Assembly (NCBI RefSeq): GCF_000185965.1 | Contig: NC_014924.1 | Coordinates: 620,001 to 684,000, forward strand | Length of the DNA: 64,000 nt | Source: Pseudoxanthomonas suwonensis 11-1 | GTDB taxonomy: Bacteria; Pseudomonadota; Gammaproteobacteria; Xanthomonadales; Xanthomonadaceae | Direction: 5' to 3' | Shown here: in pieces, positions 40,178 through 57,000 of the stretch | How positions within the stretch are numbered: position 1 is the first letter of the stretch | How the letters are laid out: every line of letters begins with the position of its first letter | Made by a program: the position numbers and the translations under genes | The notes under the pieces: model-generated | Seen by the model: the letters and a program-made list of their open reading frames with translations, nothing else | Database searches by the model: none | What the model was told of the DNA's origin: nothing

Positions 40178-40244
40178 GCCCGGGCGCCGCCCCGGGCCGC
40201 CAGGAGTCTCGGCACGCGCGACCGGCAACGGCCATAATCGCCGC

Positions 40245-41270
<1,026 letters not shown>

Positions 41271-41288
41271 CGCCGCGGCCCAATCCCT

Positions 41289-41396
41289 GTAGCCCGGACA
41301 AGGACGTAGATCGCATCCGGGGACATGCACCGGCCATCACGGCATTCCGGTAACGCGCTGCATCCTCGTTCCCGGGTGCGCTTCGCCTACCCGGGC
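41289..41396. repeat. inverted pair of GTAG-type REP hairpins
   Basis: GTAGCCCGGACAAGG...GCATCCGGGG (41289-41322) faces CCCGGGTGCGCTTCGCCTACCCGGGC (41371-41396) in the gap between convergent ruvB and pdxA. Same family as at 24580 and 28165; at this place it can serve as a two-way terminator. Confidence 0.85.
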
Positions 41397-41462
41397 GACG
41401 ACTGGATCCAACCCTCGCCCCGTGCTCCGCTCCGTGTCTCACCCCGAAGGTGGGCGGGGTAG

Positions 41463-42443
41463 TTAGCGCTGCATCCTCTGCGCCGCCATCCGCGCGCAGG
41501 TGGTGACCGCGGCTTCCAGGCTGGAGGGATCGGCCAGGCCCTTGCCGGCCAGGTCCAGGGCGGTGCCGTGGTCGACCGCCACGCGCGGGTAGGGCAGGCC
41601 CAGGGTCAGGTTCACCGCGCGCTCGAAGCCGCTGTACTTGAGCACCGGCAGGCCCTGGTCGTGGTACATGGCCAGCACCGCGTCGAAGCCGCGCAGCCTG
41701 CCGGGCAGGAAGGCGGTATCGGCCGGCAGCGGGCCGACCAGGTGCATGCCTTCGGCGCGCAGCGCCTCCAGCACCGGGATCACCACGTCCAGTTCCTCGC
41801 GGCCGAGGTGGCCGTCCTCGCCGGCGTGCGGGTTGAGGCCCAGCACCGCGACCACCGGATCGGCGATGCCGAAGTCCTCGCGCATCGCGCTGTGCAGGAT
41901 GCCCAGCACCTGGCGCAGCAGCGGCGCGTCGATCGCGTCGGCGACCTTGCGCAGCGGCAGGTGGGTGGTCGCCAGCGCCACCCGGACGATGTCGTTGGCC
42001 AGCATCATCACCACCTCGCGCCCGGCATGGCCGGCGAGCAGTTCGGTGGTGCCGGTGTAGGCGATGCCGCCCTCGTTGATGGTCGACTTCTGCACCGGGC
42101 CGGTGACCATGCCCTGGTACACGCCGCGCACGCAGCCTTCGGCGGCGCCGAGCAGGGCGTCGACCACGGCGCGGGCGTTGCGCGGGTCCGGCCGGCCAAA
42201 CTGCACGGCGACGGCATTGCGGACCGGATGCAGCGGCAGGTCGCCCGGCTGGCGGGCGACGGCATCGGCGGGCAGGAGGTTCAGCGGCAGGCCCAGCGCC
42301 GCGGCGGCGGCGGCCAGGACCTCAGGGTCGGCGAGGGCGACCAGGCTGCAGTCGGTGCGCGGGGCCTGGGCCACGCGCACGCAGAGTTCGGGACCGATCC
42401 CGGCCGGTTCGCCGGGAACCAGCGCCAGCCGCGGGAGCGCCAT
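41463..42443 (-). CDS. pdxA: 4-hydroxythreonine-4-phosphate dehydrogenase PdxA
   Basis: 326-residue dimeric enzyme of the DXP-dependent vitamin B6 route; oxidises 4-phosphohydroxy-L-threonine, whose product goes to PdxJ. Seen: LALVPGEPAGIGPEL at the start, metal-ligand histidines in TTELLAGHAGRE, LGLNPHAGEDGHLG and AMYHDQGLPVLKY. It starts 3 nt after the surA stop and is the last gene of lptD-surA-pdxA. In E. coli and most Xanthomonads rsmA and apaG follow; here convergent ruvB does. Confidence 0.97.
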   Translation of the reverse strand: MALPRLALVPGEPAGIGPELCVRVAQAPRTDCSLVALADPEVLAAAAAALGLPLNLLPADAVARQPGDLPLHPVRNAVAVQFGRPDPRNARAVVDALLGAAEGCVRGVYQGMVTGPVQKSTINEGGIAYTGTTELLAGHAGREVVMMLANDIVRVALATTHLPLRKVADAIDAPLLRQVLGILHSAMREDFGIADPVVAVLGLNPHAGEDGHLGREELDVVIPVLEALRAEGMHLVGPLPADTAFLPGRLRGFDAVLAMYHDQGLPVLKYSGFERAVNLTLGLPYPRVAVDHGTALDLAGKGLADPSSLEAAVTTCARMAAQRMQR

Positions 42444-42446
42444 GGC

Positions 42447-43775
42447 TCAGTTGGCGACGGGCTCGGCGCGGTCGCCGACGCGGAACACCACGTAGGCCTC
42501 GCCCCGCATTTCCTGCAGGTAGCGCTCGTATTCCTCTTCGAGCTTGCGGCGGCCGATGGTGTCGCGGATCTGGGCGCGGCGGTTGTCGTCGGTGACATCG
42601 GTCTCGCGACGGGCGACGCGCTCGATGATGTGCCAGCCGGCGTCGGTGCGGAACGGCTGCGAGACCTGGCCGTCCTCCAGCGCGGTCACCTGGCCGCCGA
42701 ATTCCGGGCCGTAGGCATCGGCCGGGAACCAGCCCAGGTCGCCGCCCTGGCCGCGGGTGCTGTTGTCCTCGGAGGCCTCGCGCGCGACTTCCTGGAAGTC
42801 GGCGCCGCCGGCGATGCGCGCGCGCAGGGTGTCGATCTTGGCGCGGGCGGTCGCGGCGTCCTGGCGGTCGTTGACGCGGACCAGGATGTGGCGGACGTGG
42901 TACTCGGTGACGGTCTGTGCCGGGGCCTGGGCGCTGTCGCGCACCTCGGTCAGGCGCAGCAGCTGGAAGCCGCTGGGGCCGCGCACCGGGCCGAAGATCT
43001 CGCCCGGCTGCAGCTGCAGGATCTGCTGGGCGAACGCCGACGGGATCTCGTCCAGCGAACGCCAGCCCAGGTCGCCGCCTTCCAGCGCGTTGGGGCTGTC
43101 GGAGTAGCGCACCGCGGCGGCGGCGAAGTCCATCTCGCCCTTGTTGATGACGTTGAGGATGCCCTCGACCTTGCGCTGGCCGGTGGTGATCTGCTCGGCG
43201 GTGGCGCCGTCGGGCAGCGCGACCAGGATGTGCGCCAGGCGGTACTGGCGGCTGCCGGTGGCCTCGCGGGCGAGGGCGGCGTCGATCTCGCCCTCGCTGA
43301 CGTTGATGCGCTGGATGAAGCCCTGGCGCAGGCGCTGGACGGTGATCTCCTCGTTCAGCGAACGCCTGAACTCCTCGAACGACAGGCCGTCGGAAGCCAG
43401 GCGCTGGCGCAGCCCGTCCAGGGTCAGGCCGTTCTGCTGGGCGATCATGGCGACGGCCTGGTTGACCTCCTGCTCGCTGACGCGGATGCCCTGCTGGCGC
43501 GCACGCGCGACCTGCAGGCGGGTCAGGACCAGGCGCTCGAGCACCTGGCGCTCGAGCACCGGGCGCGGCGGCAGCTGGCTCTCGCGGCCGGCGTACTGGG
43601 CCATGACGTTGCGCAGGGCCAGGTCCAGCTCGCTCTGCAGGATCACGTCCTCTTCCACGATCGCGGCGATGCGTTCGACCGGCTGCAGCTGCTGCTGGGC
43701 CTGGGCCACGCCGGCGACGGGAAGGGACAGCAGGGCGGAGGCCGCCAGGAAAATCGCGGAAAGGCGTCGGCTCAT
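42447..43775 (-). CDS. surA: periplasmic chaperone and peptidyl-prolyl isomerase SurA
   Basis: 442-residue periplasmic chaperone for outer-membrane barrels. ATG 43775 gives signal MSRRLSAIFLAASALLSLPV with cleavage near AQAQ; a longer frame to 43877 overlaps lptD and is rejected. Order: SurA_N helical domain (about 30-165), first parvulin domain with YRLAHILVALPDGA and GDLGWRSLDEIP, second parvulin with EYHVRHILVRVNDRQ and GGDLGWFPAD. It starts 4 nt after the lptD stop, which fits its job of folding LptD. Confidence 0.97.
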   Translation of the reverse strand: MSRRLSAIFLAASALLSLPVAGVAQAQQQLQPVERIAAIVEEDVILQSELDLALRNVMAQYAGRESQLPPRPVLERQVLERLVLTRLQVARARQQGIRVSEQEVNQAVAMIAQQNGLTLDGLRQRLASDGLSFEEFRRSLNEEITVQRLRQGFIQRINVSEGEIDAALAREATGSRQYRLAHILVALPDGATAEQITTGQRKVEGILNVINKGEMDFAAAAVRYSDSPNALEGGDLGWRSLDEIPSAFAQQILQLQPGEIFGPVRGPSGFQLLRLTEVRDSAQAPAQTVTEYHVRHILVRVNDRQDAATARAKIDTLRARIAGGADFQEVAREASEDNSTRGQGGDLGWFPADAYGPEFGGQVTALEDGQVSQPFRTDAGWHIIERVARRETDVTDDNRRAQIRDTIGRRKLEEEYERYLQEMRGEAYVVFRVGDRAEPVAN

Positions 43776-43779
43776 GGAC

Positions 43780-46086
43780 TCACGGGATGAGGTTCGGATC
43801 GTAGTCGTCCGGATCGGGCGTGGTGTTGCTCGGCGGGACCAGGTACAGGTCGTCGCGGTGATACCCGAGAATAGCACGGCGCAGGCTTCGCTCCGTGTCC
43901 TGGCCGGCCGAACCCAGGCCCTTGAGCACGAACTCCACCTGCAGCGCGTTGTCGAGGTCGCCCTCGCGGTTGCGCACGTAGCGGCGGGCCATGGCGCGCA
44001 CGGCCAGGCAGCAGCTGTCCCACTGCACGCCGGCGATCGCCTCCAGCAGCTTGTCGTCGCTGATCGAGTGGTAGTAGCGGCCGACCAGGCTCCAGGTCGG
44101 GTTGATCGGGTACAGGAACGAGAAGTCGGCCTGCTCCAGCAGGTCGCGGCGGTAGCGGTAGGTCAGGTTGACCACGCCGTCGTCCGGCCACAGGTAGCGG
44201 GCGCGGATGCTGGCCAGGTCCTCGCGGCGGAACTTGGGGTCCCACTGGTACGAGGCGCCGAGGTTCCAGCGGTCGTTGATCATGTAGTTGGCGTCGGCCA
44301 CCCAGGCCGACTTGCCCTGCGCCACCGGGGTCTCGCCCGGGGCCAGCACGCGCGAGTCCTCGAAGTAGCGGATCTGGCCGAGGCTGGCCGAGAGCTTCTC
44401 GCGGCCGTCTTCCTGGCGGATCAGGCGGGTGCTGAGGGCGATGGTCAGCTGGTTGGCGTCGGTCTGGCGGTCGGCGCCGGAATAGCGGTTGTCGCGGAAC
44501 AGCTGGCCCCAGCTGAAGGTGAACGGCCGGGTGTCGAACAGCGGCAGGCCGTCCTGGTCGCGGTAGGGCGCGTACAGGTAGAACAGGCGCGGCTCGAGGG
44601 TGTGCAGGAAGCGCTCGCCGTCCCAGCTGGTCTCGCGGTCGAAGTACATGCCGGCGTCGACGCTGGCCACCGGCAGGCTGCGGGTGGGGTTGCGCTCGCC
44701 GTCCTGCTGGTCGGCCAGGTCCTGGTCCAGCTGGTAGCCGGTGAAGCGCCAGGCCAGGGTCGGGGTGGCGTACCAGGCCGGCCCGCCCAGGCGCGCGGAG
44801 ATGTACGGCTTCAGGTCCAGGCGGCTGCCGCCGGGACGCTCGGCATGCTCGAAGCGCACCGCCTCCGCATAGATGCCGGCGTCCAGCCAGCGGCCCAGCG
44901 GTTGCTGCCAGTTGGCATACAGCCGCGGCAGGCGGCCGTACGGCAGGTGCCCGTCGTTGAGGGTGTAGTCGGTCAGCTGGTAGTACTCGGCCATCGCGCC
45001 GGCGCTCCAGTGCTGGCCGCTGCCGTACACGCCGGCGGTGCTCTGCAGGTAGGACGCGGACACCCCGGCCAGGCGGTTGGAGAAGTCCTCGACGAAGCGG
45101 TCGTCGCTGACCCAGCCCAGGCTGGCGCGTGCCTGCCAGTGGCGGTCGATGTTGTGGTAGCCGCGGAACTCGAAGCGCCCGCGGTCGCGGTCGCGCAGGT
45201 CGTCGTTGGGCATGTAGCCGCCCTCGAGGATGCCGCGGCCGCCCTCGTAGAGGTAGCGGAACTCGGTGTCCAGCATCAGCCCGCGCTTGGTCATGATGCG
45301 CGGGGTCAGGGTGGCGTCGTAGTTCGGTGCCAGGTTGAGGTAGATCGGCTGGCGGTAGTCGAAGCCGTTGCGCCCGGAGGTACTCACCGAGGGGTAGAGC
45401 AGGCCGGTGCGGCGGCGGTCGTCCACCGGGAACTTGATCCACGGCACGTACAGCACCGGGAAGCGGCCCATGCGCAGCACCGCGTTGCGGGCCACGCCGA
45501 AGCCCTCGTCGTTGTCCACGTCGATCCGCTGCGCGCGCAGCTCCCACGCCCGCTGGTCGGGGTCGCAGGTGCTGTAGGTCGAGTGGTACATCTGCCCGAC
45601 CGGGCCGCGCATGGAGATCGAGTCGGCGCCGCCGTTGCCGCGGCGGTCGACCAGCTGGTAGCGGATGTTGGTGATGACGTGGCTGTCGTCGTCCTGGCTG
45701 CCCTCGGCGCGGTCGGCGACGATGCGGATGCCGGAGTCCTGGTAGCGCACGTTGCCCTCGGCCACGTAGCGCCCGCTCTCGGTGTCGAAGCGCAGCTGGT
45801 CGGTGCCGAGGAACTGGTCGCCGCGGACCAGGGCGACGTTGCCCTGGTACTGCGGGGTGGTCTCGGTGCCGCTGAGCTCGTCGCCCTCGATGTCGGTGGG
45901 CTGCTCGTTGCGCGACTGGGCCAGTTCGGGATCGGCCGGCGGCGCCTCGCGGAACGCGGGCAGGACCTCCTGCGCAGGGCACAGGTCCCAGTTCAGCGGC
46001 TTCTCGTCGGCCAGGGCGGGCAGGGCGAAGGCAATGCCCACGGACAGCGGCAGCAGGCGCAGGGGAGTTCGCAGGCGGTGATGCAC
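43780..46086 (-). CDS. lptD: LPS-assembly protein LptD
   Basis: 768-residue outer-membrane protein that, with LptE, inserts LPS into the outer leaflet. Signal peptide MHHRLRTPLRLLPLSVGIAF; OstA/LptA-like jellyroll (about 60-200: DQLRFDTESGRYVAEGNVRYQD); then the 26-strand barrel with VPWIKFPVDDRRRTGLLYPS. The four disulfide cysteines are conserved in position: DLCPAQ, STCDPDQ and the adjacent pair in WDSCCLAV. First gene of lptD-surA-pdxA. Length is normal. Confidence 0.97.
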   Translation of the reverse strand: MHHRLRTPLRLLPLSVGIAFALPALADEKPLNWDLCPAQEVLPAFREAPPADPELAQSRNEQPTDIEGDELSGTETTPQYQGNVALVRGDQFLGTDQLRFDTESGRYVAEGNVRYQDSGIRIVADRAEGSQDDDSHVITNIRYQLVDRRGNGGADSISMRGPVGQMYHSTYSTCDPDQRAWELRAQRIDVDNDEGFGVARNAVLRMGRFPVLYVPWIKFPVDDRRRTGLLYPSVSTSGRNGFDYRQPIYLNLAPNYDATLTPRIMTKRGLMLDTEFRYLYEGGRGILEGGYMPNDDLRDRDRGRFEFRGYHNIDRHWQARASLGWVSDDRFVEDFSNRLAGVSASYLQSTAGVYGSGQHWSAGAMAEYYQLTDYTLNDGHLPYGRLPRLYANWQQPLGRWLDAGIYAEAVRFEHAERPGGSRLDLKPYISARLGGPAWYATPTLAWRFTGYQLDQDLADQQDGERNPTRSLPVASVDAGMYFDRETSWDGERFLHTLEPRLFYLYAPYRDQDGLPLFDTRPFTFSWGQLFRDNRYSGADRQTDANQLTIALSTRLIRQEDGREKLSASLGQIRYFEDSRVLAPGETPVAQGKSAWVADANYMINDRWNLGASYQWDPKFRREDLASIRARYLWPDDGVVNLTYRYRRDLLEQADFSFLYPINPTWSLVGRYYHSISDDKLLEAIAGVQWDSCCLAVRAMARRYVRNREGDLDNALQVEFVLKGLGSAGQDTERSLRRAILGYHRDDLYLVPPSNTTPDPDDYDPNLIP

Positions 46087-46179
46087 GGGGGAGGGGGCGT
46101 CCGGGCCGGAAATCGGCGGTAGCTTGCCGGATGGGGGTGCATGGGGGCAATGAAAGGCCGCACGGCGGCCGGCCCGGGT

Positions 46180-47091
46180 TCAGCCGCCGAGTGCCTTCAC
46201 GTGGGCCACGCAGCACTCGGCGAGGGCATCCAGGTTGTAGCCACCCTCCAGCATCGACACCACCCGGCCCTGGCCGTGGCGCAGGGCGATCGCCAGCAGT
46301 TCGCTGGTCAGCCAGGCGAAATCCCCGGCCTCCAGCATCAGGTCGGCCAGCGGATCGGACAGGTGGGCGTCGAAGCCGGCCGAGATCATCAGCAGCTGCG
46401 GGCGGAAGTCGTCCAGCATCGGCAACAGCTGGTCGGCCCAGGTGTTGCGGAAGCGGAAACCGCCGCTGCCGGGCGGCAGCAGCACGTTGTGCAGGTTGCC
46501 GACCCCGCGCTCGCGGTTGTGGCCGGTGTGCGGGTACAGCCCGGACTGGTGGGTGCTGAAGTACGCCACCGCCGGATCCTCGCGGAAGATCGCCTGGGTG
46601 CCGTTGCCGTGGTGGACGTCGAAATCGACGATGGCGATGCGCTCGATGCCGTGCTGGTCGCGCGCGTAGGCGGCGGCCACGGCGATGTTGTTGACCAGGC
46701 AGAAGCCCATCGCCGTGTCGGCGGTGGCGTGGTGGCCGGGCGGGCGCACCGCGCAGAACGCGATCCGGTCGGGGCCGGCCACCACCGCGTCGACCGCGGC
46801 CAGGCCGGCACCGGCGGCATGCACCGCCGCGCGCGCCGAGCCGGGCGAGATCACGGTTTCCGCGTCGATATGCTGGATCCCGCAGGTCACCGGCGCCAGC
46901 ACCTGGTCGACCATTTCCGCGGTATGCACCCGGCACAGGTCGCCGCGCCGCGCCGGCGGCGCCTCGCGCCAGTCCAGGGCGGGACAATGGTGCTGCAGGG
47001 CGTCGATCACCACCTGCAGGCGCGCCGGTTGCTCCGGATGGTCCGGACCGGTGTCATGGGCCAGGCAGGCGGGATGGGTCCAGGCGAGCAT
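46180..47091 (-). CDS. histone deacetylase-family amidohydrolase
   Basis: 303-residue zinc amidohydrolase of the HDAC/acetylpolyamine deacetylase fold. Active-site motifs: RPPGHHA (paired His), IVDFDVHHGNGTQ (zinc Asp and His) and ISAGFDAH (zinc Asp). The N-terminal HPACLAHDTGPDHPEQPARL is typical of the bacterial class II-like group. Acts on acetylated amines or lysines; physiological substrate unknown. It lies 53 nt downstream of the cobalamin adenosyltransferase gene on the same strand, possibly one transcript. Confidence 0.93.
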   Translation of the reverse strand: MLAWTHPACLAHDTGPDHPEQPARLQVVIDALQHHCPALDWREAPPARRGDLCRVHTAEMVDQVLAPVTCGIQHIDAETVISPGSARAAVHAAGAGLAAVDAVVAGPDRIAFCAVRPPGHHATADTAMGFCLVNNIAVAAAYARDQHGIERIAIVDFDVHHGNGTQAIFREDPAVAYFSTHQSGLYPHTGHNRERGVGNLHNVLLPPGSGGFRFRNTWADQLLPMLDDFRPQLLMISAGFDAHLSDPLADLMLEAGDFAWLTSELLAIALRHGQGRVVSMLEGGYNLDALAECCVAHVKALGG

Positions 47092-47144
47092 GGGCCCACG
47101 CTACCGTGGCCGCAGCGAAGGCGCCATAGAACCTCGGGAGGGGG

Positions 47145-47708
47145 TCAGGCGGCGGGGTGGCGCCGGTCGTTGCGCCACAGCACCTCGCCCTCGCCGGCGG
47201 CGCGGGCCAGCACCCGGGCCAGCACGAACAGCAGGTCGGACAGGCGGTTGAGGTAATGCACCGCCTCGCCGCGGACGGTTTCGGCGCGCGACAGGGCCAC
47301 GGCCTCGCGCTCGGCGCGGCGGACGATGGTGCGGGCCAGGTGGCAGCGCGCCGCGGCCTCGCCACCGGCCGGGAGGATGAAGTCCTTCAGCGGCGGCAGG
47401 GCTTCGTTGTAGCGGTCCAGCGCCTGCTCCAGCGCGGCCACGTCGGCTGCGGTGATGGCCGCATGGCCAGGGATGCACAGCTCGCCGCCAAGGTCGAACA
47501 TCTGGTGCTGGACCATGGTCAGCAGCTGGCGGATGTCATCGGGCACGCCCGGCGCGGCCAGGACCACGCCGATGGCGGAGTTGGCCTCGTCCACGGTGCC
47601 GTAGGCGGTCACCCGCAGCGAGTCCTTGCCGGTGCGGCTGCCGTCGCCCAGGCCGGTCGAACCGTCGTCGCCGGTGCGGGTGTAGATCTTCGACAGCCGG
47701 TTGCCCAT
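47145..47708 (-). CDS. pduO: cob(I)alamin adenosyltransferase, PduO type
   Basis: 187-residue trimeric enzyme that transfers adenosyl from ATP to cob(I)alamin to give coenzyme B12. Signatures: IYTRTGDDGSTGLGDGSR near the N-terminus (ATP binding), TAYGTVDEANSAIG, and RTIVRRAEREAVAL with NRLSDLLFVLAR near the C-terminus. It starts 3 nt after the stop of the putative BtuM gene, so uptake and activation of B12 would be co-expressed. No de novo cobalamin synthesis genes are in the window. Confidence 0.95.
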   Translation of the reverse strand: MGNRLSKIYTRTGDDGSTGLGDGSRTGKDSLRVTAYGTVDEANSAIGVVLAAPGVPDDIRQLLTMVQHQMFDLGGELCIPGHAAITAADVAALEQALDRYNEALPPLKDFILPAGGEAAARCHLARTIVRRAEREAVALSRAETVRGEAVHYLNRLSDLLFVLARVLARAAGEGEVLWRNDRRHPAA

Positions 47709-47711
47709 GGC

Positions 47712-48305
47712 TCAGCGGGCGGCCTGGGTACGGTCCAGGCGCAGCGCCGGGGCGACGCGCTCGGCCGTTACCTGCAGGGTGGTGGCGATGGCGGTGTAGG
47801 CGGCGGCGGTGCCCATGTAGCCCGGCAGCCAGTCGAGGAAGTTCTTCCACCAGCCGGCGACGGTCGGCTCGGCGACCACGCCGCTGTACCAGTAGAAGGT
47901 GCCCTGGGCGATGAACTGGCAGGCGACCACGGCGACCAGGAAGGCGCCGAGCAGGCGGCCGGCCTGGGCGGCACTGGCGCCGGTGTAGCGGCCGCGCAGC
48001 CAGCTGCCGCCGGCCCACAGCAGGCCGTAGGCGGGGACCAGGCCCCAGTAGGCGGCCGAGACGCAGTAGTGGTCCCAGAACGAGGCGGCCTGGCGCGAGA
48101 TCACCATCCAGTCGATGCCCATGGCCAGCGCCATCAGCAGCGGGAACACCCAGCGGCCCCAGCCGCGCAGGGCGAAGCCGGCGACGAAGAACACGGCCCA
48201 GCTGGCGTCCGGCGGCGAGAAGTGGTCGAACACGTGGGCGCGCGAGGCGGCCATCAGCAGGGCCAGGACGGACAGGACGAAGAGGCGTTGGCTGGTGGCG
48301 GTCAT
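47712..48305 (-). CDS. btuM: six-helix membrane protein, BtuM-like cobalamin transporter candidate
   Basis: 197-residue polytopic protein with about six hydrophobic segments and no ATPase partner. Three things point to BtuM, the solitary ECF S-component for vitamin B12: size and topology; immediate coupling (3 nt) to the cobalamin adenosyltransferase gene; and a lone Cys at residue 81 in FWDHYCVSAAYWG, next to the position (Cys80) that ligates cobalt in the BtuM protein of Thiobacillus denitrificans as I recall it. The first cobalamin-independent explanation would be an unrelated small membrane protein. No cobalamin riboswitch was recognised upstream (48306-48437). Confidence 0.68.
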   Translation of the reverse strand: MTATSQRLFVLSVLALLMAASRAHVFDHFSPPDASWAVFFVAGFALRGWGRWVFPLLMALAMGIDWMVISRQAASFWDHYCVSAAYWGLVPAYGLLWAGGSWLRGRYTGASAAQAGRLLGAFLVAVVACQFIAQGTFYWYSGVVAEPTVAGWWKNFLDWLPGYMGTAAAYTAIATTLQVTAERVAPALRLDRTQAAR

Positions 48306-48437
48306 TGCGCGGGGCCTGGTGGATAACGTGGCCGGCATTCTAGCGGAGCGGGCGGGCCCGCGTTGGCGGCACGTCGGAACGAGGCGCCGCGCCGTGCGGC
48401 GGCACGGCGCGCACGCGCCGCCGCGTATCATGTGCCG

Positions 48438-49640
48438 ATGATCCGAACGCATGATGTCGTGATCGTCGGCGGCGGCCTGGTGGGCGCCAGCCTGGCGATC
48501 GCCCTGGACGGGCTGGCGCTGGACGTGGCCCTGGTCGAGGCCACGCCTGCCGGCGAGCTGCCGGCCGTGTTCGACCAGCGCAACCTGAGCCTGGCCCAGG
48601 CTTCGGTCAACGCGCTGCAGGCGCTGGGCGTGCTGTCCAGCCTGCAGGCGCCGACCGGCCCGATCCGCCGCATCCACGTCAGCCGCGCCGGCGATTTCGG
48701 CCGGGTGCAGCTGGAGGCGGCCGACTACGGGCGGGAAGCATTCGGGCAGGTGGTGGTGGCGCGCGACTTCGGCCAGGCACTGGAAACGCGGCTTTCGCGC
48801 GTGCAGGGCCTGGTGCGATACCGGCCGGCGCGTTTCGCCGGACTGGAGGAGGGCGACGAGGGCCATCGCGGCCTGCGCCTGGAAACCGCGGACGGCCCGC
48901 TGTCCCTGCGTACCCGCCTGCTGGTCGCCGCCGACGGCACCGGCAGCGCCGTGCGCAATGCGCTGGGCATTGGCGTGCGCCGCCATGACTACGGCCAGAC
49001 CCTGTTCGTGGCGCGCGTGCGCGGCGAGCGCCCGGCCGATGGCACCGCCTGGGAACGCTTCACCGACAGCGGCCCGACCGCGCTGCTGCCGCGCGGCGAC
49101 CGTGCCTTCGGCGTGGTCCATGGCGTGCCCAGCCACGAGGCCGCGGCGGTGGCCGCGCTGGACGAGGCCGGCTGGCTGGCGCGGATCCAGTCCGCGTTCG
49201 GCTGGCGCGCCGGGCGCTTCCTCGCCTCGGGCGAGCGCAGCGCCTACCCGATGGCCCAGGTCGTGGCCGAGGGTCTGGTCGCGCCGCGCGCGGTGCTGCT
49301 GGGCAACGCCGCCCAGACCATCCATCCGGTCGGCGCCCAGGGTTTCAACCTCGGCCTGCGCGACGCCCTGACCCTGGCCGAGCTGCTGCGTGCCGCGCCT
49401 GGCGGCGATCCCGGCGCCGAGACGCTGCTGGCCCGCCACGTCGAACGTCGCCGCGAGGACCGCGAGCGCACCCTGGCCTTCTCCGATGGCCTGGCCAGGA
49501 TCACCGGCAATCCCTCGCCGCTGCTGCGGCCGCTGCGCAGCCTTGGCCTGGTCGCCGCCGACCGCGCCGCCTGGCTGCAGGCCTGGCTGGTGGGCGGGGC
49601 CATGGGCTTCCGCGGCGACGTGCCGGAGCTGTGCCGATGA
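48438..49640 (+). CDS. ubiH: 2-octaprenyl-6-methoxyphenol hydroxylase UbiH
   Basis: 400-residue FAD monooxygenase of ubiquinone synthesis, acting at the membrane with other Ubi proteins. Dinucleotide motif VVIVGGGLVGASLAIAL at residues 7-23, the DG motif VAADGTGSAVRNALGI, and GNAAQTIHPVGAQGFNLGLRD (GD-like motif, FAD ribose binding) mark the UbiH/UbiF/VisC family; FNLGLRDALTLAELL suggests UbiH. Its stop overlaps the start of a second hydroxylase gene. No Shine-Dalgarno sequence is evident. Confidence 0.9.
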   Translation: MIRTHDVVIVGGGLVGASLAIALDGLALDVALVEATPAGELPAVFDQRNLSLAQASVNALQALGVLSSLQAPTGPIRRIHVSRAGDFGRVQLEAADYGREAFGQVVVARDFGQALETRLSRVQGLVRYRPARFAGLEEGDEGHRGLRLETADGPLSLRTRLLVAADGTGSAVRNALGIGVRRHDYGQTLFVARVRGERPADGTAWERFTDSGPTALLPRGDRAFGVVHGVPSHEAAAVAALDEAGWLARIQSAFGWRAGRFLASGERSAYPMAQVVAEGLVAPRAVLLGNAAQTIHPVGAQGFNLGLRDALTLAELLRAAPGGDPGAETLLARHVERRREDRERTLAFSDGLARITGNPSPLLRPLRSLGLVAADRAAWLQAWLVGGAMGFRGDVPELCR

Positions 49641-50827
49641 CGGGCTACGTGAAAAGCCGCGTGCGCATGGATGTCGTCATCGCCGGTGGCGGCGTGGTCG
49701 GCGCGGCTTGCGCGCTGGCGCTGTCGCGCGCAGGCCTGGAAGTCGCGCTGGTCGAACCGCGGCCGGCGCCGCGCTGGTCCCGGGAACAGCCGGACCTGCG
49801 CGTCTACGCGCTGGCGCCGGACAATGCCACGCTGCTGCAGCACCTGGGCGTATGGCCGCAGGTACTGGCCGCGCGCGCCCAGCCTTACCGGTGCATGCGC
49901 GTATGGGACGCGGCCGGTGGCGACGAACTCATGTTCGATACCGCCTCGATGGGCCGCCCGGAACTGGGCTGGATCGTCGAGAACGACCTGCTCGCCGACC
50001 GCCTGTGGGCGGCGCTCGCGACCGCCGGCGTGCGCTGCCTCACCCCGGCGCGGGTCGAGGCGATGGAACAGGACGAAGCCGGCGTACGCCTGCGCCTGGA
50101 CGACGGCAGCCGGCTGGAATCGCGCCTGGCGGTGGCGGCCGACGGCGCCGGTTCGGCATTGCGCCGGCTCGCCGGCCTGGAGGTCGATGCCCGCGACTAC
50201 GGCCAGCGCGGCGTGGTCGCCTATATAAGGACGGAACAGCCGCACCGGGCCACGGCCTGGCAGCGCTTCCTGCCCACGGGGCCGCTGGCGCTGCTGCCGT
50301 TCACCGATGGCCTGGTGTCGATCGTGTGGAGCCTGCCGGATGCCGAGGCCGTGCGCGTGCTGGAGCTGGACGAAGGACGGTTCGCGATCGAGCTGCGCGA
50401 TGCCTCGGCAGGTCGCCTGGGCAGGGTGCAGCTGGCCTCGAAGCGTGCCGCCTTCCCGCTGCGCCGCCAGCTGGTGCGCAGGCAGGTGGCCGGGCGCGTG
50501 CTGGTGCTGGGCGATGCGGCACACGTGGTGCATCCGCTCGCCGGCCAGGGCGTGAACCTGGGGCTGCGCGACGTGGCCGCGCTGCAGGAGGAGGTCGTCG
50601 GCGCGTTGCGCCGCGGCGCCGACTGGGCCGCGCCGCACCGCCTGCAGCGCTGGGAACGGCGTCGGCTCAGCGACAACACCGTTTCCGCGCGCGCGTTCGA
50701 AACCATCAACACCGTGTTCTCGAACGCGCACCCGGTACCCACGCTGCTGCGCGGCCATCTGCTTGGACTGGCCGGCCGCCTGCCGCCGCTCAAGCGCGCG
50801 CTGTGGCGGCACGCGGCCGGGATCTGA
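49637..50827 (+). CDS. UbiH/UbiF/VisC-family ubiquinone hydroxylase
   Basis: 396 residues from ATG 49637, which overlaps the ubiH stop (ATGA). An in-frame ATG at 49667 would open right at the FAD fold (MDVVIAGGGVVG) and is also possible. Motifs: AGGGVVGAACALAL, VAADGAGSALRRLAGL and LGDAAHVVHPLAGQGVNLGL (GD motif). A second ring hydroxylase of the same pathway is the likely role; UbiF-, UbiI- or UbiM-like reaction cannot be told apart here. The C-terminus runs through NTVFSNAHPVPTLLRG as in VisC/UbiF relatives. Confidence 0.9.
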   Translation: MTGYVKSRVRMDVVIAGGGVVGAACALALSRAGLEVALVEPRPAPRWSREQPDLRVYALAPDNATLLQHLGVWPQVLAARAQPYRCMRVWDAAGGDELMFDTASMGRPELGWIVENDLLADRLWAALATAGVRCLTPARVEAMEQDEAGVRLRLDDGSRLESRLAVAADGAGSALRRLAGLEVDARDYGQRGVVAYIRTEQPHRATAWQRFLPTGPLALLPFTDGLVSIVWSLPDAEAVRVLELDEGRFAIELRDASAGRLGRVQLASKRAAFPLRRQLVRRQVAGRVLVLGDAAHVVHPLAGQGVNLGLRDVAALQEEVVGALRRGADWAAPHRLQRWERRRLSDNTVSARAFETINTVFSNAHPVPTLLRGHLLGLAGRLPPLKRALWRHAAGI

Positions 50828-51199
50828 TCAGCGGATCCAGCCGGACAGTTCCTCGCGGTCCAGGCGGCCATCGCTGTTGCCGTCGACCGCGCGGAACTCG
50901 CCCTCCAGGGTCGGGTTGGCCGCGGCCTCGCGACGGTCGATGAAGCCATCGCCGTTGGCGTCCATGGCCTCGAAATCGATGCGGTACTCGCCGACCACGC
51001 TGTCCGGCTCGAACGAGCGGACCACGATGCGTTCGTCGTGGCCGCCCTGCAGGACGGCCATGCCGCTCTGGCGCTGCATGGGCGCGGCAACCGGTTCCGG
51101 CGCCGGCGGCGGCAGGGGCAGGGTCGAGGCTTGGGCGAGCGCGCTGCCGCTGGCGACGGCCAGCAGCAGCGCGGTGGTGAGTGCGTGGATGCGGCTCAT
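50828..51199 (-). CDS. secreted EF-hand protein
   Basis: 123 residues: signal peptide MSRIHALTTALLLAVASGSALA, a Pro-rich linker, and two canonical EF-hand loops, DANGDGFIDRRE (80-91) and DGNSDGRLDREE (106-117), each with acidic residues at loop positions 1, 3, 5, 9 and 12. It should bind calcium in the periplasm or outside. Role unknown; small EF-hand proteins like this are common in Xanthomonadaceae. Its stop abuts the hydroxylase stop (convergent). Confidence 0.9.
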   Translation of the reverse strand: MSRIHALTTALLLAVASGSALAQASTLPLPPPAPEPVAAPMQRQSGMAVLQGGHDERIVVRSFEPDSVVGEYRIDFEAMDANGDGFIDRREAAANPTLEGEFRAVDGNSDGRLDREELSGWIR

Positions 51200-51277
51200 G
51201 CGTGGCTCCTGTTCCGGGTTGCGGGCGCCAGAAACTAGGAGCCCCGGGGTGAAGCGAGGGTTAACCGCGGGCCGGGC

Positions 51278-52432
51278 TCACAGCACGATGCGGCGCCCGC
51301 CCTCGCGCGCCGAGGCGTACACCGCATCGACCACGCGCATGTCGCGCAGGCCTTCCTCGCCGGGCACGCGCGGCGGCCGCTTCTCGAGGATGGCCAGGGC
51401 GTCGTTGTCCATCTGCAGCGCCTGCTGGTGCGGGAGGACGCCTTCGTCCTCGATGAGCTTGCCGTCGCTGGTGCGGCCCTTGATGTTGTCGTAGGTCTGG
51501 AACGGCGACAGCTCGTACCAGCCACGCTCGCAATCGGCGCGCAGGGTGTTCATGTCCCTGCCGAAGCTGGTCGAACACTCGGCGACCAGGCCATCGGCGA
51601 ACTCGAGGGTGAAGTGCGTGGTCTCGTCCACGCCCTCGAACAGCTGCGGACGGTGGACCTCGCTGCGCGCGGTCACCGCCACCGGTTCCTGCCCGGTGAT
51701 GTAGCGAGCGCCCTGCAGCGCATACACGCCCATGTCGTACATCGCGCCGCCGCCGTTCTGCGGCAACAGGCGCCACGGCTTGTTGGCCGGGTCGACGTCA
51801 TCGTAGGCATGGAAGCCGGCGTCGGCGCTGACCTTGAGCATGCGCCCGTAGGGTTTGTCCTTCGCCATCGCGCGCAGCTGCATGGTGCTGGGCTGGTGCT
51901 GCATGCGGTAGCCGATCGCCAGCTGCACGTTGGCGGCTCGGCAGGCATCGATCATCTCCTGCGCCTCGGCCGCGTTCATCGCCATCGGCTTCTCGCACCA
52001 CACGTGCTTGCCGGCGGCAGCCGCGCGCAGGGCCAGCGGCTTGTGCAGGTCGTTCGGGGTGACGATGTAGACCGCCTGGATCTCCGGGTTGTCGGCGATG
52101 CGGTCGAAGTCGTCGTAGCTGTAGACGTTGCGGTCGGCGATGCCGTACTTGGCCTGCCACTCCGGGATCTTCGCGGGCGTGCCGGTGACGATGCCGGCGA
52201 GGTGGCAGTTGCGGGTCAGCTGCAGGCCGGGGGCGAGCAGGTGGCCGGCGTAGTAGCCCAGGCCGACCAGGGCCACGCCGATCGAATCCGGACGTCGTGC
52301 GCTGGCTGCGTCGCCGCGCTTGCTGGCGGTGGCGCCGGCACGTCCCCCGGCAGCGGCGGGCAGGGCGGCACCGATGCCGGCGCCGGCCATGGCGGCCAGC
52401 AGGTGGCGGCGGGTCAGTCCGGTGTCGAGCAT
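51278..52432 (-). CDS. Tat-exported Gfo/Idh/MocA oxidoreductase (glucose-fructose oxidoreductase-like)
   Basis: 384-residue NAD(P)-dependent oxidoreductase. The start MLDTGLTRRHLLAAMAGAGIG carries twin arginines, so it is folded and exported by Tat with its cofactor, as known for Zymomonas glucose-fructose oxidoreductase. Rossmann motif VALVGLGYYAGHLLAPGL, the EKPMA motif with catalytic Lys (VWCEKPMAM), and DMGVYALQGARYITG are seen. AGGAGG lies 3-8 nt before the ATG. Substrate probably a sugar or inositol-type compound; not readable. Confidence 0.92.
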   Translation of the reverse strand: MLDTGLTRRHLLAAMAGAGIGAALPAAAGGRAGATASKRGDAASARRPDSIGVALVGLGYYAGHLLAPGLQLTRNCHLAGIVTGTPAKIPEWQAKYGIADRNVYSYDDFDRIADNPEIQAVYIVTPNDLHKPLALRAAAAGKHVWCEKPMAMNAAEAQEMIDACRAANVQLAIGYRMQHQPSTMQLRAMAKDKPYGRMLKVSADAGFHAYDDVDPANKPWRLLPQNGGGAMYDMGVYALQGARYITGQEPVAVTARSEVHRPQLFEGVDETTHFTLEFADGLVAECSTSFGRDMNTLRADCERGWYELSPFQTYDNIKGRTSDGKLIEDEGVLPHQQALQMDNDALAILEKRPPRVPGEEGLRDMRVVDAVYASAREGGRRIVL

Positions 52433-52663
52433 GGAGCCTCCTATATATGTGTGTGCGGCGCGCGGAGCCGCGTCGGCGGCGGACGGCACACGATGCCACA
52501 GCATGCCCGCCAGCTGTAACGCCGCCGTACGCCGGCGTGCCTGGATGGTGCGCCGGCCATGCCATCCTTCGCGCGCGATCCGAAACGGGACCGCCGTTGC
52601 ATTCCCATCCCAGCCGGTGCGACCGGCCGTGGCCATACTGCAACACCGGAGGAGGACGCCCCC

Positions 52664-53383
52664 ATGCAGCAGCTCGAACTCAAAGACCCGGCGGCCTTCG
52701 CCTCCGAATTCCTGCGCCAGACGCAGCTGCAGGGCTTCGGCGCGCTCAGCAAGCGCGACCTGGAATTGCTGGTGTTCGTGCTGCTGGAACGCGACGGCGC
52801 GATCGACCGCAATGCCAGCAACCACGCCGCCGCCGCGCAGTTGCGGGTGACCCCGGCAAAGCTGCGCGCGCTGCGCCGCGACGGCTACGCGCGCTGGCGG
52901 CAGCTGGTGGCCGAACCTGCGGACGAGGCGCTGCGCCGCATCCTGGGCTACGTCCTGACCGAGGCCAACCTGCGTTCGGGCAGCCGCCATGTCAGCGAGC
53001 GGAGCCGCAACGATGGCTTCCTCGCGGTGCGCATCGAACATCCCGATGACCGCCAGCAGTTCGAACAGGCGATCCTCGATGCCGGTGGACTGCCGGTATA
53101 CGAGCGCAACCGCGAGGTGGTGGCGGTGCGTTTCGACACCCTGGTCGCGCTGGCCGAGCGCAGCGGCTTCCTGCAGCCGGATACCGCTGCGGTGGTCGAT
53201 GCCCTGCGTGCGCTCGCCCCCGCCTCCCAGGAGCTGGCCGAGCTGCTGCGCAAGGACGTGGCCAGCCTGCGCTGGAGCGACGTGCGCAACGCGGTCAACA
53301 GCCTCGGCGCGAAGGCGGTGGCGGGTAGCGCGGAGAACGCGTTGCGCGGCCTGTTGAAGCTGGTGTTTCCCTTCCTGCCCTGA
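52664..53383 (+). CDS. orphan helical protein of unknown function
   Basis: 239 residues, no signal peptide or membrane helix. GGAGGA lies just upstream of ATG 52664. The first 90 residues are helical, with LSKRDLELLVFVLLERDGAID and LRVTPAKLRALRRDGYARW, a pattern that looks like a helix-turn-helix plus basic helix. The middle has a mixed alpha/beta stretch (FLAVRIEHPDDRQQFEQAIL) and the end a hydrophobic helix (ENALRGLLKLVFPFLP). Not recognised. Divergent from the Gfo/Idh gene. A short hairpin (53384-53404) follows. Confidence 0.8.
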   Translation: MQQLELKDPAAFASEFLRQTQLQGFGALSKRDLELLVFVLLERDGAIDRNASNHAAAAQLRVTPAKLRALRRDGYARWRQLVAEPADEALRRILGYVLTEANLRSGSRHVSERSRNDGFLAVRIEHPDDRQQFEQAILDAGGLPVYERNREVVAVRFDTLVALAERSGFLQPDTAAVVDALRALAPASQELAELLRKDVASLRWSDVRNAVNSLGAKAVAGSAENALRGLLKLVFPFLP

Positions 53384-53404
53384 TGCCCGGCCATTGCCGG
53401 GGCA
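53384..53404 (+). terminator. hairpin after the orphan gene
   Basis: TGCCCGGC pairs with GCCGGGGCA (one extra G) around CATT, starting at the stop. No T tract. The rest of 53405-54086 is the receptor leader region, with no other gene seen. Confidence 0.35.
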
Positions 53405-53454
53405 AGCAGCGTTGAACGTGCAAGCAACGCTTGCGGAGAAACGTGCTGCGCCGC

Positions 53455-53466
53455 GACAAAAATGTC
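53455..53466 (+). promoter_or_regulatory. distal element shared by both receptor copies
   Basis: GACAAAAATGTC sits in a stretch matched at 61730-61741 (CACAAAAATGTC), with similar flanks (GAAACG...GC before, GCCGCTG after). It lies 631 nt before the receptor ATG here and 652 nt in the other copy. Function unknown; a regulator site or remnant of the duplicated upstream gene end are both possible. Confidence 0.35.
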
Positions 53467-53732
53467 TGCCGCTGACGTCCTCCCCGGGGTGGGACGGACG
53501 TCGCGGATCACATCCAGCGAAAACACGCCATACGCGGATGCATGGATTCGTACCGTCGCCCTGCGTCCTTCGCAATGTCTTGATTGTCCTGCGCTTTCGA
53601 AATCCGGCCGCGCATTAAGGTTTCGTCGCCCCACGGATGGCGCAAAAACATGACTCGCGGTGTCATCCCGCGATTGTTTTTATCGCGTGAATGTTTTGAT
53701 CGAAACCGTAAAAAAAGTGTTGCGCTGCACTG

Positions 53733-53761
53733 TGGACACCCCAGAAAACAGCTGTTATCCA
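53733..53761 (+). promoter_or_regulatory. candidate promoter of receptor copy 1
   Basis: TGGACA, 17-nt spacer, TATCCA. The -10 side (CAGCTGTTATCCATTCGCC) is conserved in receptor copy 2. Next to it, 53778-53791 (TGGTACCGCTAACT) matches most of the TGGTANCGNTACCA operator of Xanthomonas LacI-type sugar regulators, but this site is not kept in copy 2. Confidence 0.35.
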
Positions 53762-53968
53762 TTCGCCCCGCGTTAACTGGTACCGCTAACTGTTGTACCC
53801 GAGTGCAGTTCCGGCCAGCGCGTGGGGCGACTGCCACCATCCATTGCCGGGGAGGCTTTCGAACCGGCGGACCCTGGATAGAGCTCCGGGATTGGCATCC
53901 ACAAGCCGATGCCACAAAGGAAGGAACCAACATGCGATCCAGAAGAGAGAGAGGGGAGGTTTAACAGG

Positions 53969-54076
53969 ATGTACACGTGTCTCCGATGTCCAGCGCTGTC
54001 TATCGGCGTGACCACGACCGGCTTCCGGTCGGGCAAGCGCCAGCCCACGCCGACAGCTGACAACTTCCAGTGCTGA
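53969..54076 (+). CDS. 36-codon leader reading frame (uORF) of receptor copy 1
   Basis: ATG preceded by GGGGAGG at 8-9 nt, 35 codons, TGA ending 10 nt before the receptor ATG. Receptor copy 2 has a leader frame of exactly the same length and position, also ending Gln-Cys-stop, although indels put the middle in different frames. Peptide sequence is thus not conserved; start, length and stop are. A role in translational coupling or attenuation is inferred. Confidence 0.35.
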   Translation: MYTCLRCPALSIGVTTTGFRSGKRQPTPTADNFQC

Positions 54077-54086
54077 GGACTTACCT

Positions 54087-57000
54087 ATGAACCACAAGAT
54101 GAAGAAGAAGTTCCGCTCGCGGGCGATGTTCACCATCGTCGGCGGCATGATCGTCATCAATCCCGCGTTCGCCCAGGACTCCCAGGAAGCGACCCAGCTG
54201 GACACGGTGCAGGTCACCGGTCTGCGCAGCTCGCTCGACCAGGCCATGAACATCAAGCGCGACACGCCCGGCGTGGTCGACGCGATCAGCGCCGAGGACA
54301 TCGGCAAGTTCCCGGACACCAACCTGGCCGAGTCCCTGCAGCGCATCACCGGTATCTCGATCGAGCGCCGTGACGGCGAAGGCGCGCAGGTCACCGCGCG
54401 TGGCTTCGGCCCGGGCTACAACCTGGTCACCCTCAACGGTCGCCAGATCCCCGGCGCCGACGGCTTCGGCGGCGGCGGCCTGGAGGTCGGCGGCGTCGGC
54501 TCCGGTACCCGCGGCTTCAACTTCGCCCAGCTCGCCTCCGAGGCGGTCAACGGCGTGACCGTGTACAAGACCGGCCGTGCCTCGCAGCCGTCCGGCGGCA
54601 TCGGCGCCACGGTCGACATCCTGACCGCGCGTCCGTTCAACAACCGCGGCGGCGAAGTGGTCGCCAGCGCCGGCGTCAAGGCCGTCTCCGACGACTCGCA
54701 GACCATCGGCAGCGACATCACTCCCGAGATCTCGGGCATCTTCAGCTACGCCAACCCGGACAAGACCTGGGGCTTCAGCGTCAACGCCAGCTACCAGGAG
54801 CGCCACGGTGGTTCGGCCCAGGCCACCCAGAACGGCTGGAACGTGGCCCGCTGGACCGGTACGGACAGCAAGTTCCGTTCGGATGCGGTGATCGAGAACG
54901 CGCCCGAGATCGGCCAGCTGTATTCCATGCCGAACGACGTGCGCTACGCGTACCAGAACTTCGAGCGCGAGCGCACCAACGCCCAGGCGGTGCTGCAGTT
55001 CGCCCCGAGCGACGCCCTGACCTTCACCCTCGACTACACCTATTCGGTCAACGAGATCGCGCAGGACCGTGGCGAGCAGACCATGTGGCTGCAGAACAAC
55101 CTGACCCACGTCACCTTCGATGGTGACAAGAAGGTTGCGACCCCGGTCTACATCCGCGACCTGGCCGGCGGCGGCAAGGACTTCGGCTTCGAGCAGCAGC
55201 GCGACGAGCAGAAGTTCAACCTCGACTCGCTCGGCCTGAACGTGAAGTGGGACGTCAACGACCGGCTGACCCTGAACTTCGACGTCCACAACACCAAGGT
55301 CAACAGCCGTCCGAACGACCCGGTCACCGGCGGCAGCTCGACCGCGTTCAGCTTCGGTGCCTTCGCGCCGAACCCGGCAGTCAACAACTGGACCCAGGAG
55401 TACGAGTTCAACAACGGTCTGCCGCTGATGTGGCGCACCCTGTACCCGACCACCGCCGACGCCCTCGCCGGCACCAACGGCGTGGTCAACTCGGACTTCT
55501 CGCCGGAGACCTTCGGCAGCCAGATCATGCGCATCTGGTCGACCCGCCAGGACAGCGAGGTCAAGGCCGGCCGCATCGACGGTGAGTTCGCCTTCGACAA
55601 CGGCCGCTTCCTGTTCGGCGTCGATTCCAGCGACAGCAAGATGCGCCGCCTGAACGTCGACGGCCATGCCCACCTGATGACCCTGGGCGACTGGAACTCG
55701 ACCGACCGCGGCCAGATCGCCGACATCGCCAACCACCTGCGCCAGTTCAGCATCACCAAGCTGTTCGAGGACTTCAACACCCGCGGCGCCGACTCCAACG
55801 TGTGGATCGGCAACGCCACCGAGCTGGCGCAGTGGGCCGAGGGCCTGTGTGCCTCGGGCAACGCCCCGGCCGCGTGGGACGCGCAGAACCGCTGCGACGA
55901 GATCTCGTCGCGCGTGTACGGCGCGCTGGATGCCGACAACCTGGTCCAGGAAAAGACCAAGTCGGTCTACATCCAGTGGGAGCAGGACGGCATGCTCGGC
56001 GACTTCCCGACCTACATGGTCGCGGGCGTCCGCTACGAGAAGACCGACGTGAAGTCGACCTCGGTTATCCAGGTCCCGGGTGCCATGGCGTGGCTGTCGA
56101 ACAACGACTTCCAGATCCGCAACTCGGATGAGGCGATGCCGTTCAGCGAGACGGCCAGCTACAGCTACGTGCTGCCGAACCTCGACTTCAGCATCGACTT
56201 CACCTCCGACCTGAAGGGCCGCGCCTCGTTCAGCAAGACCATCGCCCGCGCCCCGTACGGCAACCTGTACGCCGGTCCGGGCGCTGGCATCCCCAGCGGT
56301 TCGACCCTGTACGGCGAGCAGTTCCGCGCCACCGGCAACGCCCAGACCCCGAGCCTGCTGCCGCTCGAGTCGGACAACATCGACATCGGCCTGGAGTGGT
56401 ACTTCGCTCCGTCCAGCTTCGTCGGCGTGACCTACTGGAACAAGCGCGTCAAGAACTTCATCGGCAACACCGTGGTGCGCGAGAACCTGTACGGCCTGGC
56501 CGACCCGACCACTGGCCCGGATGCGCAGGCCGCCAATGCGTTCCTGGCCAGCGCCCAGTGCACCGCCCAGGTCACCGCCGCGGGCAACGATCCGTCCGAG
56601 GGCTGCAAGCAGGACTACACCACCCTGTTCGCCGCCACCGCGCTGATCCGCTACGCCGCCCAGACCGGCGGCCTGGCCGCGTACGACGGCTCCAACCAGC
56701 AGTCGCTGGACCTGGAGGCGCTGTACGACATCATCGGCGACACCAGCCGCGGTGACCCGCTGTACCAGTTCGACGTCAACCGCCCGGTCAACCAGCGTGC
56801 CGCCACGCTGCACGGCTGGGAGCTCGGTGGCCAGTACTTCTTCGGTGACACCGGCTTCGGCGTCCTGGCGAACTACACCATCGTGAAGGGCGACGTGGGC
56901 GTGGACCGCGCCGCCGATCCGGACACCGACGTGTTCGCCCTGACCGGCCTGTCCGACACCGCCAACCTGGTGCTGATGTACGAGAAGTTCGGGTGGTCGG

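Follow-up and report, generated by a model that had tools for sequence, protein, structure and literature searches.

A predicted BtuM-type solitary cobalamin transporter paired with a PduO-type adenosyltransferase in Pseudoxanthomonas suwonensis 11-1, and DUF6580 as its candidate replacement in related genomes

The btuM locus and the identity of the 197-residue protein

The window, meaning the whole 64,000-nucleotide stretch that was analysed, covers positions 620001-684000 of the single-contig genome of Pseudoxanthomonas suwonensis 11-1 (3,419,049 bases), which contains one BtuM. The gene (47712..48305, minus strand) encodes 197 amino acids and is predicted, from a PDB sequence match, an AlphaFold model and Foldseek, to specify a solitary cobalamin transporter of the subfamily termed type A below. 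A spacer of 3 nt (47709..47711, minus strand) separates it from the gene of a 187-residue PduO-type ATP:cob(I)alamin adenosyltransferase (47145..47708, minus strand). The minus strand continues with a gene for a histone-deacetylase-domain protein (46180..47091; PF00850), kept downstream of the adenosyltransferase gene, and with the kept neighbours lptD (43780..46086) and surA (42447..43877), both recognised by profile matches. On the other side lies the divergent ubiH (48438..49640, plus strand; TIGR01984 over cut-off), which in relatives bounds the slot that holds btuM or DUF6580. The open frame extends upstream of the btuM start, to 575 amino acids in all, and the N-terminus beginning at the ATG at 48305 is conserved among close relatives.

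The adjoining enzyme matches PF01923 (E 6.9e-60, 202.4 bits, cut-off 24) and TIGR00636 (E 2e-58, 196.9 bits, cut-off 108.45). By family it is a PduO-type adenosyltransferase with the corresponding predicted activity, as a sequence-only reading of the locus had stated, including its distance of 3 nt. No cobalamin riboswitch was matched by Rfam at btuM within window positions 40000-56000, on which ground riboswitch control of btuM itself was rejected, and no consensus promoter was found near btuM within window positions 46000-49000.

Pfam and NCBIfam scans gave the 197-residue protein no family label, the sole Pfam match (E 0.38) being far under the cut-off. A search of all PDB sequences, with E values up to 10, returned one distinct match, 8c7p/8ovv (E 2.5e-26), in an alignment that spans residues 6-181 of the window protein. 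The titles given by Foldseek for these entries are BtuM with cyano- and hydroxycobalamin. Residue numbers counted from the alignment place Cys 80, Asp 67 and Tyr 85 in the PDB protein, and the excerpted text of PMC6072759 uses the numbering Cys80, Asp67 and Tyr85 for Thiobacillus denitrificans BtuM. The cysteine that had been picked out at residue 81 of the window protein, in FWDHYCVSA, is seen in the translation (codon 48063..48065, minus strand). It aligns with Cys80 of T. denitrificans BtuM and a Cys is present at this position in 135 of 135 aligned BtuM rows, a set that includes near-copies and from which the over-long L135 was dropped; alignment and row conservation make it the predicted cobalt ligand.

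The AlphaFold model, built with 47 sequences, comprises six helices at a mean pLDDT of 90.3, as expected of the unlabelled six-helix protein described earlier. Its best Foldseek match is 8c7p (E 8.8e-8, TM 0.78/0.85), and 8ovv is matched too. The next S-component, the biotin protein BioY (4dve), follows at TM 0.58/0.60 with E 2.4, which is not significant alone; ECF S-components such as BioY thus resemble the window BtuM in overall fold, whereas BioY has another substrate and no sequence match to the window protein. The nearest named relatives, the BtuM proteins of Pseudoxanthomonas sp. J31 and P. suwonensis DSM 17175, are 91 and 93 % identical. Sequence match, model and aligned cysteine together identify the protein as a BtuM by prediction, in agreement with the sequence-only reading; neither outcome that this reading had named as contrary to it, a missing structural match to S-components or a Cys that fails to align or is not conserved, was seen. 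The window gene is accordingly a known kind of protein, with subfamily features of its own.

BtuM subfamilies, partner enzymes and binding pocket

BtuM was found in 91 of 250 genomes sampled from the order. Type A was defined as the 76 genomes whose best BtuM match ranks from 100 % down to that of G005 (43 % identity). A PduO-type gene lies directly downstream of type A btuM, on the same strand, in all 76 (44 established by coordinates, 16 by loci and 16 by further fetched loci), so the proposed pair of BtuM and adenosyltransferase extends well beyond the window. The loci of the best 80 named relatives also have PduO downstream of BtuM in 80/80 cases, at 658 nt in L153, with the limit that they were picked by likeness to a type A-led query and are not independent of the 76 genomes. 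The BtuM-PduO pairing is more than chance. PduO-type genes occur in 231/250 genomes of the order, and therefore the enzyme was probably present before type A BtuM. One record titled Bacillus subtilis strain SK7B5 (L133) carries a type A BtuM-PduO pair; a mistaken title or a contaminated assembly is the probable cause.

BtuM proteins of types B and C, encoded in other Lysobacterales operons, belong to the same family as the window BtuM and keep the Cys, but differ in their partner. In 16 of 19 fetched non-A loci CobA/BtuR lies near BtuM; a btuB-like gene often precedes it, and some loci have a tandem BtuM pair. Neither enzyme is near in L041, L043 and L044, and PduO is near in none. These 19 come from a set of 20, the twentieth of which, L045, is type A with PduO. 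The operon of L039 contains btuB over cut-off, CobA, CobB/CobQ-like proteins and CbiB, and CobA is present somewhere in the genome for 28 of the 30 genomes with a non-A copy. Ten loci outside the order (L070, L072-L079 and L082; the weak match L080 left out) have CobA in five, neither enzyme within 1.5 kb in five, and PduO in none. The phylum sample yielded BtuM in at least 20 of 398 genomes, with 8 candidates scored per genome, a figure that is no count of absence. The PduO and BtuR adenosyltransferase families are not homologous.

The tandem paralogues beside CobA/BtuR (L031:4181-5397, also L032-L036) are diverged, with DFC and DWC motifs that both contain the Cys. At L043:6022-6591 and L044:5914-6483 a BtuM-like gene with Cys stands among neighbours in which no B12 gene was recognised by eye; both genomes also have a riboswitch-led DUF6580 (L246, L247).

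The T. denitrificans protein (Rempel et al. 2018, PMC6072759; 8c7p, 8ovv), as described in the excerpted text, shares with the window BtuM its sequence, the Cys and the six-helix fold, and both adjoin an adenosyltransferase gene in a genome with no EcfT. Its neighbour is btuR, a partner that BtuM genes frequently but not always have, whereas the window BtuM stands beside the PduO type in a genome with no match to CobA/BtuR (PF02572). The two also differ in the pocket, where the window BtuM has Asn for Arg153, together with an insertion and a His before the Cys. Both features are general in type A. Among the 135 rows (110 type A and 25 others, with the near-copies included), the Cys and the Asp are invariant; the Arg153 equivalent is Asn in 110/110 type A rows and Arg in 21/25 others, and the residue two before the Cys is His in 109/110 type A rows vs Asp in 21/25 others. 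A short insertion precedes that His in the type A Cys loop. The conserved BtuM pocket residues are His28, Asp67, Tyr85 and Arg153; in the window BtuM the His28, Asp65 and Tyr86 equivalents are kept, the His equivalence being alignment-dependent, while Arg153 is replaced by Asn. Mutant R153A of T. denitrificans BtuM showed that this residue is not essential for binding or decyanation, according to the excerpts of PMC6072759, and no functional conclusion is therefore drawn from the Asn.

The changed pocket and loop could be read as a shifted specificity, with a cobinamide-like precursor or another cobamide as the main substrate of this BtuM. The Asn and His substitutions and the loop insertion are what such a shift might leave behind, and cobinamide is a further ligand of T. 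denitrificans BtuM (PMC6072759, excerpted text). However, the pocket Cys and Asp are kept throughout and the His and Tyr in most rows, the genome contains no CobA/BtuR, and the window neighbourhood as read has no cob-operon genes near btuM, all of which makes a precursor or other cobamide an improbable main substrate.

Cobalamin use in the host and the proposed uptake route

Three cobalamin riboswitches were found in the genome, before nrdAB, metE and btuB. The btuB product is a TonB receptor that scores above the cut-off for BtuB, the outer-membrane counterpart that had been suggested as a check on the assignment. MetH (in two open frames), IcmF and NrdJ (over cut-off) are also present. Therefore, the organism uses, senses and imports B12. 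The first of these riboswitches (G000:C1:62379-62594, L056) precedes the class I ribonucleotide reductase genes in a genome that also has the B12-dependent NrdJ, which suggests that B12 switches between nrdAB and NrdJ.

No FecCD permease was found in the genome, so that an additional importer of BtuCDF type, the other check suggested earlier, was rejected. The genome likewise gave no match to CbiQ/EcfT (PF02361) in a search that was positive in 10 of 14 control genomes. With neither FecCD nor EcfT, BtuM is the only inner-membrane importer candidate among the families searched, and the claim that it works without an ECF module stands, transport itself being predicted. Use of a borrowed ECF module would fit the S-component-like fold, but the genome holds no EcfT matching PF02361 that could supply one; ECF coupling was rejected and is extremely unlikely. 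That an unrelated six-helix membrane protein merely resembles BtuM, for which the missing Pfam and NCBIfam label might speak, was rejected as hardly conceivable in view of the full-length PDB sequence match, the best structure match to 8c7p, the conserved Cys and the kept PduO pairing.

Very probably, then, btuM encodes a solitary cobalamin importer with Cys81 as cobalt ligand that feeds the adjoining PduO-type adenosyltransferase. The basis is the family, the fold, the position of the Cys, the gene order, the B12-dependent enzymes, the riboswitches and the absence of FecCD and EcfT from the genome. In the proposed route, BtuB would carry cobalamin across the outer membrane, and BtuM would bind it base-off at the periplasmic face, where Cys81 would ligate the cobalt from below and so allow decyanation. 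Alone, with neither ECF module nor ATPase, BtuM would then move cobalamin into the cytoplasm, where the PduO-type enzyme would adenosylate and so trap it. The adenosylated product would supply NrdJ and IcmF, and cobalamin would be used by MetH in methionine synthesis. Binding mode, decyanation and transport are taken over by analogy from the published T. denitrificans protein, and we infer both the trapping step and co-transcription of btuM with the PduO gene. The counterpoints to this BtuM explanation are the published partner btuR vs PduO here, the Asn at the Arg153 position, and the lack of a riboswitch or promoter at btuM in the stretches scanned.

Solitary transport, the invariant Cys and Cys-dependent decyanation are already known for T. 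denitrificans BtuM, and its co-localisation with btuR and metabolic trapping by the neighbouring adenosyltransferase have been published as well (PMC6072759, excerpted text). No BtuM-PduO link appears in the excerpts of PMC8123684 and PMC12713380, both of which name BtuM and PduO. Literature searches on 8C7P, BtuN and new cobalamin transporters found nothing relevant, and none of the papers among the matches listed for Lysobacterales genera contained the word BtuM. What is added here is the pairing of type A BtuM with PduO, the occurrence of DUF6580 in the same slot, the mutual exclusion of the two and the prediction for DUF6580.

DUF6580 in the slot upstream of the PduO gene

Genomes throughout the order repeat the arrangement surA-lptD-HDAC-ATR-[slot]-ubiH; loci that are more distant lack some of these neighbours. 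Twenty loci were fetched around the PduO gene from genomes without type A BtuM. The slot holds a protein of 177-198 residues in 14, is empty in two (L194, L195) and shows neither state in four (L198-L201). Seven of the 14 proteins were scanned and all seven are DUF6580 (PF20221), a family for which no function is known. Loci with DUF6580 in the slot include L183-L193, L196, L197, L202 and L258.

DUF6580 is present in 49/250 genomes of the order and together with type A BtuM in 0/250, where 14.9 would be expected (Fisher p = 1.9e-9, a value that is too small as the genomes are related). It lies upstream of the PduO gene, on the same strand, in 36/49 genomes (28 by coordinates, six by loci and two by further loci) and elsewhere in ten, three being unassignable (no PduO match in G154, contig ends in G052 and G045). 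On its other side ubiH is found in 20 of 22 slot loci read with flanks (not L197 or L254). In G228 the slot is occupied by DUF6580 and none of the flanking genes is missing, while the 16 other sampled congeners have type A BtuM. Mapped on an adenosyltransferase tree with 89 members, the slot label switches between BtuM and DUF6580 at least six times; the tree was made by a quick method with many weak branches, and its strongly supported branches alone force two to three switches. The exclusion is limited to type A and the slot because five genomes (G016, G034, G136, G235, G247) hold DUF6580 together with a non-A BtuM-like gene. DUF6580 is rare outside the order, with matches in 5/398 genomes of the phylum sample, which includes order members, three of them over cut-off. 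None was found in viral contigs, and a plasmid search gave nothing useful.

A further 20 DUF6580 loci were fetched, favouring those not known to occupy the slot. A cobalamin-type riboswitch lies upstream on the same strand in nine. A TonB receptor stands between riboswitch and DUF6580 in L238, L239, L240 (AdoCbl-II), L242, L244 and L245, and the riboswitch is directly before DUF6580 in L246-L248. For each of the five receptors scanned, out of six, the best NCBIfam match is TIGR01779, the B12 receptor model, below cut-off. No riboswitch was found at the six slot loci among the 20 (L252-L257) or at eleven further slot loci scanned. Five of the 20 (L241, L243, L249-L251) have neither a riboswitch nor the PduO-slot link, and a B12 role for every DUF6580 member is therefore doubtful. 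G119 has one such unlinked copy and one riboswitch-btuB-linked copy (L242). A PF01902 gene is present in L244 and L245; PF01902/DUF71 has been tied to B12 salvage (PMC3541065, excerpted text). PF01497 binding-protein genes lie near DUF6580 at L242:7101-8042 and L244:5819-6736, with no BtuC or BtuD recognised beside them, and their products might pass cobalamin on to a transporter of the solitary kind.

Profile comparison by hhalign of 135 BtuM rows (77 after filtering) with 46 DUF6580 rows gave a probability of 93.9 %, a score of 52.5 and E 1.5e-7 over 155 columns. The controls scored 13.5 (reversed DUF6580), 14.4 (reversed BtuM) and at most 26.8 (60 block shuffles); smaller alignments of the two profiles were weak (38.7 % and 20.7 %). 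DUF6580 gave no match to PDB sequences. In the large profile alignment the Cys loop is deleted in DUF6580, some members of which have Cys at two other columns (24/46 and 38/46 rows), and DUF6580 was not filed as BtuM because the loop-3 Cys is missing. By its profile, DUF6580 is a distant BtuM homologue that shares the place upstream of the PduO gene but is without the Cys loop. Position, exclusion, riboswitches and profile similarity together lead to the prediction that DUF6580 replaces BtuM: it is likely a Cys-less solitary cobalamin transporter that has been swapped with BtuM several times in the PduO slot of Lysobacterales. None of the papers searched mentions DUF6580 or PF20221, and the family may have been predicted before under a different name.

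The results extend the range of BtuM to a clade in which it is paired with PduO instead of BtuR, and this pairing agrees with the published view that solitary uptake of B12 is pulled by adenosylation. The slot comparison gives DUF6580 a testable function. If the prediction is true, DUF6580 would explain B12 import in some bacteria that have BtuB but lack any known importer in the inner membrane. It would also tell whether transport requires the Cys-cobalt chemistry or whether that chemistry is an extra function serving decyanation. The order would then present a set of naturally occurring swaps in which a Cys-decyanating transporter and one unable to decyanate take each other's place.
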